Of a stretch of DNA of 45,753 nucleotides, positions 5,031-45,629 are shown piece after piece. Under the pieces are notes generated by a model. That model saw only the letters and a list, made by a program, of their open reading frames with translations. It had not been told where the DNA came from and searched no databases. Source of the stretch: a virus; IMG/VR virus record IMGVR_UViG_3300036851_000359, positions 1 to 45,753 of that record, one strand, 5' to 3'. The translations under genes were made by a program, and so were the position numbers. Positions within the stretch are counted from its first letter, which is position 1; each line of letters opens with the position of its first letter.

Positions 5031-5410
5031 GATTATGCTGCACATGGCCAGAGCGAGGATTAAGGTGTATGCACCTGAGGGGAGAGCCCGGCCAACCTGG
5101 AGCAACTCATTGCGCCATCTTCGAGAAACGCTACGACAAGATGCTCATCTTCATGGTGGATGCTGATGGGAAAGCGCAGGCATCTACCGTTTGCGAAACA
5201 ACCACATGGCCTGAGTGCTGCCGCCCTTTCTGCAGCCCGCCAGTCGAGGCTGGTAAAGCCGCTTCAGTTGAGCAAGAAGAGGGTGATGCTCGCTCTTCCG
5301 ACGGAGCACGCGCAGCTCACGACAGCGATTGCGATGATGCTGGCGGACGCTGTTGGACTGAGTATGACTCCGGGGTACCCGTTCGAGTTCGAGATAGCGA
5401 TAGTGAATGA
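5012..5410 (+). CDS. Doubtful cysteine-rich frame overlapping the glycosyltransferase start
   Basis: A 132-residue frame opens inside the end of the 51-residue gene. Its residues about 24-55 read like a real protein (RGEPGQPGATHC, IFEKRYDKMLIFMVDADGK) and use the codons common in this genome. The last half loses this character and runs about 250 bases into the glycosyltransferase frame. Either a short Cys-rich protein is real and its end is obscured by a frameshift, or the frame is chance. The 43-codon frame 5035-5166, which ends in a TGATG junction, is a competing interpretation. Confidence 0.3.
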   Translation: MSCARVGLCCTWPERGLRCMHLRGEPGQPGATHCAIFEKRYDKMLIFMVDADGKAQASTVCETTTWPECCRPFCSPPVEAGKAASVEQEEGDARSSDGARAAHDSDCDDAGGRCWTEYDSGVPVRVRDSDSE

Positions 5411-6020
5411 TAAGTATCCGACGGAGTACGCCCGCAACTGTCTCGCTAAGAAACTCCTCGACAGCAAGTGTGAGGCGATGTGGTTTATCGATAGCGACAC
5501 GCTACCTACCAGTAACTCGTTCGAGTTGCTCAAGGTGGACGCAGACATTGCGTGCGGCATCTATCCGATAGGGCGAGGTGATCGAGGCAACGAGAGGCTT
5601 CCCTTCGACTGGAGCTTCTACTTGCACGAGAAGGACTGGAGCTTTCGGCCACTACCCCTCGAAGCGTATGAGGAGAACGAGGTGGTCGAGTGTGATGCGG
5701 CTGCGACGGGCTGCATGATCATCAAGCGGCGTGTGATTGAACACTTCGCAAAGGACGCCCCCCTCGACAATGACGGCATTCCGGCTGTGTTCGACTGGCC
5801 CAAGTATGCAACAGGGAAGAGCATCACCTCAGATGATCTCTCCTTCTGCAGACGCGCAAAGGAGGCGGGATTCTCACTTAAGGTACACACTGGGATTCGC
5901 TGGGGCCACATCAAGCAGAGAGACATGCGAGACGTTTACGATCAACTCAAGTACGCCTTCATGGCAGGGGTAGGAGAACAGATGGCTAAGGAAGAGGAAG
6001 AAAATGTCGCTACCGCATAA
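5160..6020 (+). CDS. GT-A type glycosyltransferase, copy 1
   Basis: The protein has a nucleotide-sugar-dependent GT-A pattern. It has an initial strand (RVMLALPTE, residues 41-49), PTEYARNCL (87-95), then WFIDSDTLP with a DXD metal-binding motif at 111-113, and later WGHIKQRD. A second gene at 44766-45629 shares all these blocks, so the two are paralogues. The paralogue starts just before the first strand, so the 36 extra N-terminal residues here are doubtful. A TTG at 5268 would give a 250-residue protein that aligns end to end. The target could be virion protein, host surface glycan or DNA. Placement beside capsid genes favours virion glycosylation, which is inference. Confidence 0.8.
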   Translation: MLMGKRRHLPFAKQPHGLSAAALSAARQSRLVKPLQLSKKRVMLALPTEHAQLTTAIAMMLADAVGLSMTPGYPFEFEIAIVNDKYPTEYARNCLAKKLLDSKCEAMWFIDSDTLPTSNSFELLKVDADIACGIYPIGRGDRGNERLPFDWSFYLHEKDWSFRPLPLEAYEENEVVECDAAATGCMIIKRRVIEHFAKDAPLDNDGIPAVFDWPKYATGKSITSDDLSFCRRAKEAGFSLKVHTGIRWGHIKQRDMRDVYDQLKYAFMAGVGEQMAKEEEENVATA

Positions 6021-25875: not shown

Positions 25876-25979
25876 TTGTGATCTCCACAGCAATTTGACA
25901 GCAGAATGTGGCACTTCGGACACTCTATCTTCCCGTGATTAGGGACACCTTCTCGACCGCAGGCAGGGCATCTATCCAT
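25872..25979 (-). CDS. Zinc-ribbon microprotein (35 residues) overlapping the polymerase end
   Basis: A 35-residue frame opens at ATG 25979, 8 bases after GGGAGGT, inside the last 55 bases of the polymerase gene but in another frame. It reads MDRCPACGREG, then CPKC and CC, so it has four to five zinc ligands. It ends in a GTGA junction with the next gene. The strong ribosome site, Cys pairs and junction make a chance frame unlikely. Confidence 0.6.
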   Translation of the reverse strand: MDRCPACGREGVPNHGKIECPKCHILLSNCCGDHK

Positions 25980-27541
25980 TTTCTCAGACCTCCCGTATTT
26001 CTCGCAGAATTTTTTCCCCAATTTCTACCTATCGCCACATCCACCGGACACCATAACGTAGGTAGATGTCCACAACTACCGACTTCGGGCCACCCTCTCT
26101 CCATGATTCTCTTAACCATCTCTGCAGTATCTTCCGGCTTAGCACTACTCAAAGTCCAGCTATCATGCGTCGTGGTGACGAGCCGCAGATTAGCTTTAGA
26201 GATACGATGGTAGCTGTTGACTCGATCATATAGAGCCCTCCCCACCACCTTGATCATATCACCTACGATACTCTGCGGCCTGAACGCGAGGGCTTCTTCC
26301 CTGTCGAGGAGCTTCCCCTTCTTGTCGAAGGACCAGAAGCGGAGGACGCGGCCAAACACCGTTTGAAGCTGACGTTGCTCTGAGGCTTCAGCAAGGGTTG
26401 CTGCTTGCCATAAGGCAAGTCTTGGCCATCGCTCAAAATAAGCTCGAATGATTCTTCCACAGACCTCTTTCGGTATACCGTATGTCCGACTGAATTTCTC
26501 CGCGCCCATTCCGTAATGTAGCTTATGAGTGAGTTTACCTGCTTGCCTGAAAGATCGCCCACCTGGATCGTTAGGGAACACAACTTCGTCGGCGTTGCCC
26601 ACCGTGAGTCCAGTGAAACCAATCGCGTCAGCAAGGACGAGCGCATTTTCTGCATGAATGTCCCGACTCCCATCTAATATCACCTCCGCCATCTCATCAT
26701 CGTTAGCAAGCCACGCCGTCACCAAAGCCTCAACCTGCCTCCAATCAGCCTGAACAAGCCAAGAATCATCGGTATCACCAACATACATCCGCCTGAGTCG
26801 ATCTGGCACATTTTGCATGTTCCCCGCTTCGCTGACTCGTTTCTTATCTGGCTCGGCGTTGTCGTCACCCGACCCGAGCCTCCCTGTAGAGGTCATCATG
26901 TGGTAGCAAGGGTGAGCGTAGCCTCGGTCGTCTACCTTTACCTGCAAGTACGTGCTGAGATCGTGCTCAAGGGTATCGAAGCGTGCCTTCAGCTTCAGCA
27001 ACTCAATCGTCGGGTGAGCACGACTCAACTCCGCAATCGCGTCCTTATCTACTTGCGATAATCCCTGCTTCTTTGTGCGCCGTCGCGAGCTAGCTTTGAG
27101 GGCCAATCCCCCTGGCTCACCATCGAAGAGTAGCCTTCTCCAGTGCGCATCGGAGCGAATCTTAAATTCCCCGCCGTCGAAGCCGGAGCCCCACCGCTTT
27201 CTCTCGCTAACCTGACGCTCTTGATCGCAAGCCCGTACATCTCGTGCCCATTGATAAACGCGCACACATCCCTCGCACTTTGCTCGCTTAACTCTACCTC
27301 GATACTCAGGGTGCTCCGCACACCCTTCGAGTTGCTCATCTCCACCTCCAGCCATCCAGTGCGTAACGAAGGGCGTTGCGACATCCTCTATCTCCTTCTT
27401 GAGCTTCTTAAGCTCAGTTCGCGTATCGTCTAGGAGCTGCTGCCGGACAGTCTCATCTACTCGAAAGCCATCTCTCTCAAGCTGATAGATCACATTATGG
27501 AAAGGACTAATTACTTCTTGGTAGAGAGATAGTAAGGACAT
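25925..27541 (-). CDS. Family A DNA polymerase, polymerase domain only
   Basis: The 538-residue protein is the polymerase half of a PolA-type enzyme. The thumb start YQEVISPFHNVIYQLERDGF begins at residue 7. STGRL (218-222) and NMQNVP (241-246) precede motif A (DWRQVEALVTAW from 266, with DIH at 294-296). Motif B is RQAGKLTHKLHYGMG (332-346), the viral RQxGK form. Motif C is THDSW (458-462). The usual HDE is HDS here, so the glutamate is replaced. A Cys/His-rich insert (C74 to C92, possible zinc knuckle) lies in the thumb. No exonuclease domain is present; it is encoded separately upstream. Role: phage genome replication. Confidence 0.9.
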   Translation of the reverse strand: MSLLSLYQEVISPFHNVIYQLERDGFRVDETVRQQLLDDTRTELKKLKKEIEDVATPFVTHWMAGGGDEQLEGCAEHPEYRGRVKRAKCEGCVRVYQWARDVRACDQERQVSERKRWGSGFDGGEFKIRSDAHWRRLLFDGEPGGLALKASSRRRTKKQGLSQVDKDAIAELSRAHPTIELLKLKARFDTLEHDLSTYLQVKVDDRGYAHPCYHMMTSTGRLGSGDDNAEPDKKRVSEAGNMQNVPDRLRRMYVGDTDDSWLVQADWRQVEALVTAWLANDDEMAEVILDGSRDIHAENALVLADAIGFTGLTVGNADEVVFPNDPGGRSFRQAGKLTHKLHYGMGAEKFSRTYGIPKEVCGRIIRAYFERWPRLALWQAATLAEASEQRQLQTVFGRVLRFWSFDKKGKLLDREEALAFRPQSIVGDMIKVVGRALYDRVNSYHRISKANLRLVTTTHDSWTLSSAKPEDTAEMVKRIMERGWPEVGSCGHLPTLWCPVDVAIGRNWGKNSARNTGGLRKWIDALPAVEKVSLITGR

Positions 27542-27720
27542 TCATGTGCCTCTAGAGATAGTAGCCAAGTCATCCCGCATCCGACACACTTCTTAAATAC
27601 AGCGTGCGACACAAGATTCATACTCTGTATGTCTACAGCCTCGTACCTCTTCTTATAGTGTAATCCATATCTACAAGTAAAAGGTGAGATGATATCCTGG
27701 TAGAGAGAGAGGAGGCTCAC
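27511..27720 (-). CDS. Small zinc protein whose N-terminus copies the polymerase N-terminus
   Basis: GTG at 27720 overlaps the methyltransferase stop (GTGA). The 69-residue product begins MSLLSLYQDIISPF, nearly identical to the polymerase start MSLLSLYQEVISPF, although the codons differ. It ends with CVGCG and HECPYY, a likely zinc site. Its last 31 bases overlap the polymerase start. It may be a remnant of a displaced polymerase N-terminus fused to a zinc finger, or a subunit that shares a docking peptide. Confidence 0.65.
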   Translation of the reverse strand: MSLLSLYQDIISPFTCRYGLHYKKRYEAVDIQSMNLVSHAVFKKCVGCGMTWLLSLEAHECPYYLSTKK

Positions 27721-28109
27721 TTCGCTAGTCCACCTAGAAAGAAAACTACGTGGCTGCGTGCAACGTCTACCTTCCTCCCATCCGGCGTGTCGAACTTTAC
27801 GCGGAAGGGGATTTCCCACTTTCCCCAACTCGCTGCTTTAAGCACCTTATATGCTAGAGTGCTACAATCATTCGGTATGAGGAAGGCTACAAATTTACCT
27901 CGCTCTACCTCAAAGACAGCTTTATCCGCCCATCCTATGATATCCGAGTAAGGCGGATTCACAAAGTTCTTCTCCCCCCACGGAATACCTAGTCCATCCA
28001 CGTAATGATCCTTCGGACAGGGATCGAATAGCTTGCCGAAGACGTGCTCAAGTGGCAGCATCACCTCGGGGGGAGTGTAGCGTTCGTCTCCATCAGTGGG
28101 TCTACTCAT
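27717..28109 (-). CDS. Phage DNA N6-adenine methyltransferase (Dam-like)
   Basis: The 130-residue protein has the pattern of the small phage adenine methyltransferase family: RYTPPEVMLPLEHVFG (10-25), FDPCP (28-32) and NFVNPPYSD with the catalytic NPPY at 51-54. The enzyme transfers a methyl group from S-adenosylmethionine to adenine N6, usually as protection against host restriction. It sits between the exonuclease and polymerase parts. The start (MSRPTDG) resembles the repeated start of three small genes at 31.9-32.5 kb. Confidence 0.85.
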   Translation of the reverse strand: MSRPTDGDERYTPPEVMLPLEHVFGKLFDPCPKDHYVDGLGIPWGEKNFVNPPYSDIIGWADKAVFEVERGKFVAFLIPNDCSTLAYKVLKAASWGKWEIPFRVKFDTPDGRKVDVARSHVVFFLGGLAK

Positions 28110-28130
28110 TAGCTAGCCTGAGTGTTAGGA

Positions 28131-28400
28131 TCATCTCGGCCACTCCCCAAAATGTGCGAGCGCGTGCTCCTTCAGCTCCCTCAGCCGCTCAATCTCTTCA
28201 TCTAAGTCACAGATATGGAGGTAATCGCTCAGCTCATCTTCCGGCCGTGCCTCCTGATCCTGCTTAGGATGGTTATAGTACCGATTGTAGTGAATACACC
28301 CATCCCACTTCACCACCGCATAATGCCAACCACTCTCCACATCATCCAACTCAAGCCAGTGATCAAGAGACTTCTCTTCAACTTTCTTCCAGAACTTCAT
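28131..28400 (-). CDS. Hypothetical acidic protein between exonuclease and methyltransferase
   Basis: An ATGA junction couples this gene to the exonuclease stop. The 89-residue product has aromatic-rich (HYNRYYNHPKQDQ) and acidic helical (DLDEEIERLRELKEH) parts. A 10-codon frame (28103-28135) bridges its stop to the methyltransferase start and may relay ribosomes. No family was recognised. Confidence 0.6.
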   Translation of the reverse strand: MKFWKKVEEKSLDHWLELDDVESGWHYAVVKWDGCIHYNRYYNHPKQDQEARPEDELSDYLHICDLDEEIERLRELKEHALAHFGEWPR

Positions 28401-28997
28401 CTCATCATCTCCTCTAACCTCTCTTTAAGCGAGTATGTCTTGAGCACGTCGAGGACGCAGTAGAGTTTCTCCCACTCGTAGGGTGCGAAGGAGGAGCCGA
28501 AAGCCGTTTGATAGAAACCTCGTCCATAATCTGATCCAGCTTCTTTCCAGTACGTCTCCGTTTCATGTGTTCTAAGCACACAGAGCGGAAGTGAGTGGAA
28601 AGGGAGTCTAAGTCGCGTCTTACTCGTTTCCTCTGACTTTCTGTCAGCGACTGGGGGCCATAGGATCGCAGCAGCAGCCATAGTGTCAAATACTTTAGCA
28701 GCAACTTTGATTCCTGAGCAGCCGTAGAACGCCCTAGCGTCGTAGGCGAAGTTATGCCCGATGATCTCACTCCTCTCTTCCTCAAAGCCACCTCCGCATG
28801 AGGCTGATGTAAGGTTCAATCCACTCGAATACGATCCCCTCCCTAGCTGATCGCGCTAGGCCACACATCTCAATCACATCATTCTGCCCCATCGGAGTCT
28901 CCACGTCGCAGGCAAGCGGGCAGCCAGAGGTCAGCCAGTTGGCTACCTGATCAGGCGAGGGGGAGAGGTTGATGTTGAGGCCAGTGAGGCGGTTCAT
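28397..28997 (-). CDS. 3'-5' exonuclease (PolA/DnaQ type) encoded in two frames, possible +1 frameshift
   Basis: Frame 1 (28997 to 28782, 71 codons) carries Exo I: LACDVETPMGQ, the DxE metal ligands. Frame 2 (to 28397) carries Exo II: IIGHNFAYDARAF, then FDTMAAAAIL, and Exo III: YCVLDVLKTYSL. All catalytic acids are present only if the frames are joined. Frame 1 stops at CTT TGA, and a +1 slip there joins MRRWL to EEERSEIIGHN to give a 199-residue protein that reads smoothly. Frame 2 has its own TTG at 28819 but would lack Exo I. This is the proofreading module usually fused to the polymerase. A true deletion or sequencing error is the alternative. Confidence 0.7.
28782..28796 (-). promoter_or_regulatory. 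Candidate prfB-like programmed +1 frameshift site
   Basis: The leftward strand reads CGG AGG TGG CTT TGA G. A Shine-Dalgarno-like GGAGG sits exactly one codon before CTT TGA. The bacterial release factor 2 site is AGG GGG TAT CTT TGA C, with the same spacing. Slippage of the Leu tRNA from CTT to TTT shifts the frame by +1 into the second exonuclease part. Confidence 0.55.
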
Positions 28998-29221
28998 CCC
29001 TTAATCCACTTCGACTTGTCCATCCTATTTCCTGCGCCCCACGTAATCTCTACCAAGAAGGCATCTTCCCATTCAATATTCTTTTGCTGTAGTAGAGTCA
29101 TAATGTGCACCTTACCCTCTACCTTATTAGCATAGGGTCCAGTTACTCGAATCGTTTTACAATCTGGCATGCGTAGTACTCCTAGCCATCCGTAGAGTGG
29201 AATAATATCGTCGTCTTCCAT
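28994..29221 (-). CDS. Hypothetical small protein
   Basis: ATG at 29221 follows AAAGGAG by 6 bases and the gene ends in an ATGA junction with the exonuclease. The 75-residue product has an acidic start and a beta-rich middle (YGWLGVLRMPDCKTIRVTG). It may be an exonuclease partner by position only. Confidence 0.6.
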   Translation of the reverse strand: MEDDDIIPLYGWLGVLRMPDCKTIRVTGPYANKVEGKVHIMTLLQQKNIEWEDAFLVEITWGAGNRMDKSKWIKG

Positions 29222-44583: not shown

Positions 44584-44769
44584 ATGGCACTTGGAATGAA
44601 GGTTAAAGGTGAGCGTAAGGGGCCTTACGACGAGCTTTCTAGGCGCATGTTAGCTGGTAGGAAGATGCAGAATAAGCTAGAGCGCGATCCGGGGGAGGGT
44701 GCGCGAAAGGGTGAGAGACGGCTTCCGAAGGCTACTCCCTCCTCGTCTAAGCGAGGAAGTAGAGCGTGA
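44584..44769 (+). CDS. Small basic protein (61 residues)
   Basis: A second Lys/Arg-rich product (MALGMKVKGERKGPYDEL...SSSKRGSRA) follows by one base and ends in an overlap with the glycosyltransferase start. Possibly a DNA- or capsid-binding accessory protein. Confidence 0.6.
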   Translation: MALGMKVKGERKGPYDELSRRMLAGRKMQNKLERDPGEGARKGERRLPKATPSSSKRGSRA

Positions 44770-45629
44770 AGAAGAGAGACAAGCGTCACATCCTCCTCGC
44801 CATCCCTACCGAGACCTCGCAACTCCACGTCCCGGTAGCGGCCTTCGCGGTCGAGGCGACGAAGTACAACCAGAAGCGGGGGTGCCCATTTCAGTTTAGT
44901 ACCGCCTTCCTCGTCGGCAAGAGTCCTACCGAGTACGCAAGGAACTGCCTCATCACGCAGGCGGTGAAGCAGAAGGACGTGGACGCGATCTGGTTCGTGG
45001 ACTCAGACATGGTGCCGTCGCCGAACTCGTTTCAGCTCCTCAATATCAAAGCTGACATAGTGGCAGGGATTGCGCCGATCCTCACCAACACCGAGAGCGA
45101 CCGCCCCTCCTTCACGTGGAATCTCTACAAGAGGGTAGTCGGGACTAGTGAGCGGGATTTCATCCCGATTGGACTCAACGGCGGGAAGCCGATGCAAGTG
45201 GATGGGGTGGGGACGGCTTGTATGATCATCAGTCGCAAAGTGTTCACCGACAAGCGGCTCTGGCTCGGAAAGCCGGTGGGTGATGATAAGATTATCCCTC
45301 TCTTCCAGTGGCCGCGCAACATCGCCGGGGAGACGCTTGGGACAGATGATTTGGATTTTTGTCGGCGTGCACGTGATCTCGGCTACACAATCACAGTCGA
45401 TCCCTCAGTCAAGTGGGGCCACCTCAAGGAACTCGACCTCAAGTGGCCTATCGAGAAACTCAACCTCCAGTGGCAGCGCCCACCCTCAAGCCTAGTCACT
45501 ATGAATGAGTATAATGACTACGCTATCCAGGTCGGCCAACCTCCACAGTTCGTGTACCAACTCAATCCGTCGGGCGAGGCCACGCAGCATGGGGCTGCGG
45601 ATGGCGTTAATCGCGCTAACCGAGAGTAG
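44766..45629 (+). CDS. GT-A type glycosyltransferase, copy 2
   Basis: The 287-residue protein starts directly with the first strand (HILLAIPTE) and has SPTEYARNCL (53-62), WFVDSDMVP with the DXD at 79-81, and WGHLKELD. It is a paralogue of the gene at 5160-6020, with a longer C-terminal tail. The two copies flank the portal and capsid genes on the circular map. They may act in sequence on the same acceptor. Confidence 0.85.
   Translation: MKKRDKRHILLAIPTETSQLHVPVAAFAVEATKYNQKRGCPFQFSTAFLVGKSPTEYARNCLITQAVKQKDVDAIWFVDSDMVPSPNSFQLLNIKADIVAGIAPILTNTESDRPSFTWNLYKRVVGTSERDFIPIGLNGGKPMQVDGVGTACMIISRKVFTDKRLWLGKPVGDDKIIPLFQWPRNIAGETLGTDDLDFCRRARDLGYTITVDPSVKWGHLKELDLKWPIEKLNLQWQRPPSSLVTMNEYNDYAIQVGQPPQFVYQLNPSGEATQHGAADGVNRANRE

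Follow-up and report, generated by a model that had tools for sequence, protein, structure and literature searches.

A candidate prfB-type +1 frameshift site in a viral proofreading exonuclease gene

Can a phage replication gene that looks broken be read as a single protein by the type of ribosomal frameshift that bacteria use in prfB, the gene for release factor 2 (RF2)? We address this question for a 45,753-base record of an uncultured virus (the window, meaning the whole stretch of DNA that was analyzed), in which a predicted 3'-5' exonuclease is divided between two overlapping reading frames. An earlier note on this DNA had placed motif Exo I in one frame and Exo II and Exo III in the +1 frame, and we find exactly this arrangement on the minus strand (Table 1). 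The window has a podovirus-like gene set that includes an SU10-type portal, a terminase, a head protein, and RecT-like and HNH genes, and the exonuclease locus is known from this single contig. Among the 37 genes of the window, 27 have a Shine-Dalgarno (SD) sequence, so the host ribosome probably uses SD pairing.

Table 1. Positions in the window of the exonuclease locus, its junction site and its neighbors
Feature	Positions	Strand	Remarks
Small gene upstream of the exonuclease	28994..29221	-	stop overlaps exonuclease start (ATGA)
Exonuclease, frame-0 ORF	28782..28997	-	71 codons + TGA stop; Exo I D31-x-E33, D31 and E33 invariant in 54 relatives
Internal SD-like GGAGGTG	28789..28795	-	7 bp with anti-SD, prfB register; -12.7 kcal/mol
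Slippery codon CTT + stop TGA (CTTTGA)	28782..28787	-	in frame 0
Exonuclease, +1-frame part	28397..28783	-	Exo II GHNFAYD, DTM, Exo III YCVLD; ends in ATGA overlap with next gene
Small gene downstream of the exonuclease	28131..28400	-	ATG overlaps exonuclease stop (ATGA)
Family A DNA polymerase without exonuclease domain	25925..27541	-	same operon as the split exonuclease

Two frames and one predicted exonuclease

When the two frames are joined at CTT/T/GAG, with one T skipped, they give a protein of 199 amino acids (P0001). The earlier note had expected a joined product of this length to hold all the acids of the active site, and the catalytic residues are indeed complete in it. Besides the two Exo I acids of frame 0, the +1-frame residues N82, D104, Y179, and D183 are invariant across the alignment with 54 relatives, and D86, also in the +1 frame, is an aspartate in 50 of the 54. 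The features that define a DEDDy 3'-5' exonuclease (PF01612), namely DxE, the Exo II aspartate, YxxxD and an RNase H-like fold, are found together in the joined product only. The same gain is seen with Pfam DNA_pol_A_exo1, which matches the joined product at E=1e-7 and the downstream part alone at 1.2e-5, while the upstream part alone has no match. In the AlphaFold2 model of the joined product, residues 11-110 have a pLDDT of ~95 (whole-protein mean 80.5) and a helix formed by residues 63-72 crosses the junction at ~95; the Foldseek matches of this model are DEDDy exonucleases and polymerase I. Codon usage gives a coding signal in both frames. Based on the alignment and the model, we predict that the joined frames are one stand-alone family A (DEDDy) 3'-5' exonuclease with catalytic residues on both sides of the junction. 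As this product is a DNA_pol_A_exo1 protein and not a class I release factor, the gene is not prfB. Its outer ends are tight, intact ATGA overlaps with both neighbors, as for a single gene.

An alternative is that the two frames are two separate genes, with GGAGG as the ribosome-binding site of the second, and that their products function separately or assemble as two chains of one enzyme. GGAGG would serve well as an SD, and the +1 frame has a TTG (28819) ahead of the site. However, no ATG, GTG or TTG follows in the +1 frame within 20 codons of GGAGG, the TTG precedes that SD and is not itself preceded by a well-spaced one, and either product would be missing part of the DEDD active site. We therefore regard two separate genes as very improbable.

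A close known parallel to a single joined enzyme is ExnV1 (PDB 7r0t), a viral PolA-type exonuclease that its authors consider probably a truncated polymerase gene (PMC9629493). The predicted protein has the same active-site residues as ExnV1 and the exonuclease domains of family A polymerases (PF01612) and, like ExnV1, is viral and without a polymerase domain. In contrast to ExnV1, which is encoded in a single frame, the exonuclease of the window occupies two frames and has the polymerase as a separate gene in one operon. This polymerase starts at the point where the exonuclease domain ends in relatives. The exonuclease and polymerase are thus separate genes in the window, whereas they are fused in the distant relatives that we checked. 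Within 25925-28997 (-), an 89-aa ORF, a Dam-like methyltransferase, and a small ORF lie between the two. We also observed a partial duplication of the beginning of the polymerase gene (MSLLSLYQEVISPF; 27501-27532 and 27680-27711, both -): the second copy (SLLSLYQDIISPF) lies 179 nt upstream, where a small ORF that contains cysteines begins. Elsewhere in the window, the ORFs 5160-6020 (+) and 44766-45629 (+), near opposite ends of the contig, have similar translations, and the first of these matches glycosyltransferase-like PHROGs.

The junction site compared with prfB

Frame 0 ends in GGAGGTGG CTT TGA, its last codons being ATG CGG AGG TGG CTT TGA. The earlier note's description of a frame that ends at CTT TGA one codon after GGAGG, in the order and spacing of the bacterial prfB site, is accurate: the register is the same, and 3 nt separate GGAGG from CTT. 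Pairing of GGAGGUG with the CACCUCC of the anti-SD gives 7 bp at -12.7 kcal/mol. Of 10,586 codon positions within genes, 0.12% reach this energy, and it is stronger than the -10.4 kcal/mol of an E. coli-type prfB site. The codon in the P site is CTT, the codon that follows is an in-frame TGA, and protein homology continues from the site in the +1 frame. A search for stimulatory RNA structure downstream of the site found none that stands out (z = +1.7). Frameshifting in prfB needs no such structure.

The C that follows the stop in prfB is highly conserved, not universal. In the window this base (+4) is G (TGAG), which is expected to permit better termination than the conserved C and thus weighs against a prfB-type shift, as does the UGG codon before CTT (the E site), where prfB has UAU. 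The prfB consensus is AGGGGG, 3 nt, CTTTGA, C (PMC12421855), and GG_AGG is present in some prfB genes (PMC5009743). The exonuclease site therefore resembles prfB in its in-frame CTT TGA, its internal SD 3 nt upstream in register, its putative +1 resumption, and its predicted inactive zero-frame product (PMC12421855, PMC5009743), and it differs from prfB in its location in a phage exonuclease gene, in GGAGG for AGGGGG, in UGG before CUU, and in the G after TGA. Conservation of the prfB site has been explained by RF2 autoregulation (PMC12421855), and in RECODE every CUU-stop +1 site belongs to prfB (PMC10885494). Phages are known to make +1 shifts at CCC-stop or another CCC site, as in SPP1 gp17.1* and Listeria phage tsh (PMC6316719, PMC5009743). 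The exonuclease would share with these a phage-encoded +1 shift at a stop codon. In contrast, the SPP1 and Listeria shifts use a proline slip codon and yield extended structural proteins, whereas the slip codon here is a leucine CTT with an SD and the product is predicted to be active only when joined. Our literature searches, which covered open-access papers, turned up no phage gene with a prfB-type site.

The site exceeds chance expectation, and the following figures are to be read as optimistic because the case was picked for its resemblance to prfB: only one of the 25 CTTTGA strings in the window, that of the exonuclease, has an SD in the correct place; 28,921 simulated 1-nt insertions in window genes gave CTT-TRA in 1.4%, a share that fell to 0.014% once an SD was required as well; and among 2,402 CTTTRA sites in 3.74 Mb of control strands (other loci and the window), 4 have a strong SD, 12 have a two-frame layout, and the exonuclease site alone has both.

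We also located where the protein is likely to switch frame. Both frames are open together for about 74 nt before the stop, and we scored every possible junction in this region with an HMM built from relatives only, repeating the analysis with a cleaner alignment. The best score, 28.3 bits, falls at the CTT codon, tied with the preceding codon, and the score drops to about 24 a few codons upstream; taken alone, the HMM thus points to the final four codons. Codon usage also favors a late switch, with a peak at codons 66-67. Together, the HMM and codon usage place the frame change in roughly the final four to seven codons and do not single out CTT.

Programmed frameshift or broken gene

The strong anti-SD pairing in register, the HMM junction, the two-sided catalytic residues, the Pfam gain, the structural model, and the coding signal all support expression by a prfB-type shift, as do the intact ATGA ends and the rarity of such a site among simulated insertions and control strands. 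Based on these data, we propose as the probable explanation that a programmed +1 frameshift of the prfB type yields one stand-alone proofreading exonuclease. Translation would begin at position 28997 and proceed through 71 codons to CTT TGA, where the ribosome would stall while GGAGGUG is paired with the anti-SD; the peptidyl-tRNA would then shift its pairing from CUU to UUU, and GAG would be the next codon read, in the +1 frame, to give the 199-aa enzyme. Ribosomes that terminate normally would yield a 71-aa fragment with Exo I only, which is expected to have no activity. Competition with RF2 would determine how often the shift occurs and thereby how much exonuclease is made relative to the polymerase, which has its own gene; a dependence on RF2 level is what we would expect by analogy, as it follows from prfB biology.

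The relatives of this phage bear on the proposal from the other side. Judged by sequence similarity, the phage appears to be an orphan whose nearest relatives were found at about 25% identity. Single-sequence scans of viral contigs yielded no relatives for the exonuclease, the polymerase, or the terminase, the portal has matches only at 23-27%, and the head protein has no matches. A scan with the polymerase motif DWRQ-E-A was discarded since its matches were unrelated. We did find about 80 polymerases at roughly 25% identity and, where an exonuclease was found with them, it was fused to the polymerase and unbroken. The exonucleases with the same Exo II-to-DTM geometry (67 loci) are likewise unbroken near the corresponding place. 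A pattern search for CTTTGA with GHN-x-x-YD returned no viral matches and 55 genome matches, with no broken exonuclease with an SD among them; in most of the 55, TTTGA is an ordinary in-frame Phe-Asp/Glu. The prfB-type +1 reading of the earlier note is partly supported: the anatomy of the site, its statistics, the junction position, the catalytic residues, and the model all fit it, and it has against it distant relatives that carry exonuclease and polymerase in one uninterrupted frame.

Unbroken distant relatives and a locus known from one contig are also what would be expected if a true one-base insertion mutation had inactivated the exonuclease, or left it leaky, in a context that resembles prfB by coincidence. 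The operon itself shows signs of rearrangement, with exonuclease and polymerase separated and the beginning of the polymerase gene partly repeated. Nevertheless, neither frame has any further damage, all catalytic residues are kept, and random insertions seldom yield CTT-TRA with an SD, and we consider an insertion mutation unlikely. Alternatively, the break could be an assembly or sequencing error that splits an intact gene: one extra T in TTT would give the same layout and account for everything, the unbroken relatives included. However, a run of three Ts is not error-prone, the other conserved genes of the contig (terminase, portal, and polymerase) are full length, and the error would have to fall exactly where a prfB-like site results. 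An error of this kind is, in our judgment, quite unlikely.

prfB consensus sites in other phage proteins

To survey phage genes more widely, we scanned viral contigs for the prfB consensus AGGGGGTNNCTTTGAC and found 90 sites, 9 of which have a long frame-0 ORF ending there together with a long +1 ORF; in the same loci, the control string CTTTGAC without an SD has this two-frame layout in 2 of 116 cases. Two clear cases are left, both large phage proteins with AGG GGG TCA CTT TGA C exactly at the two-frame junction (RGSL/D). Going upstream from the site, the +1 frame meets a stop after 6 codons in the first (L267:21-2349 (+)/L302 (-)) and after 22 codons in the second (L218:1697-6188 (-)/L298 (-)). 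No ATG lies near either junction; the second protein has a single GTG, 15 codons upstream and with no SD. Assembly error is unlikely for both because each pair comes from two metagenomes, L267 and L302 differing at 4 of 6,837 positions. On sequence grounds, these are candidate prfB-type frameshifts outside prfB; a further case, L306, is less clear.

These two phage families support a prfB-type shift in the exonuclease and raise the likelihood that phages use such a module. We tentatively suggest, as a possibility that falls somewhat short of even odds, that phages use a prfB-type RF2-sensing module outside prfB, which here would dose a detached exonuclease such that replication fidelity responds to the termination capacity of the host. 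If true, this would mean that the prfB-type module is portable, since a working site would lie in a gene for phage replication, and that a phage has a means of setting its exonuclease to polymerase ratio. Gene callers should in that case look for SD-CTTTGA junctions in phage genes that are now listed as broken.

Other cases from the survey were rejected. L280 was dropped, as its downstream ORF can start from an ATG of its own immediately ahead of the site. The cytosine methyltransferases L228, L285, and L301 were rejected as prfB-type cases. In L228 and L301, conservation of the +1 frame itself, with substitutions mainly at third positions, extends ahead of the string, so the string is an ordinary Gly-Gly-Phe-Phe-Asp and the frame break lies further upstream. 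These phage C-5 cytosine methyltransferases (L228:6707-8249 (+), L301:64-1198 (+), and L285:6690-7920 (+)) are three diverged homologs with their N- and C-terminal motifs in two frames and, at least in L228 and L301, the break upstream of the prfB-like string.
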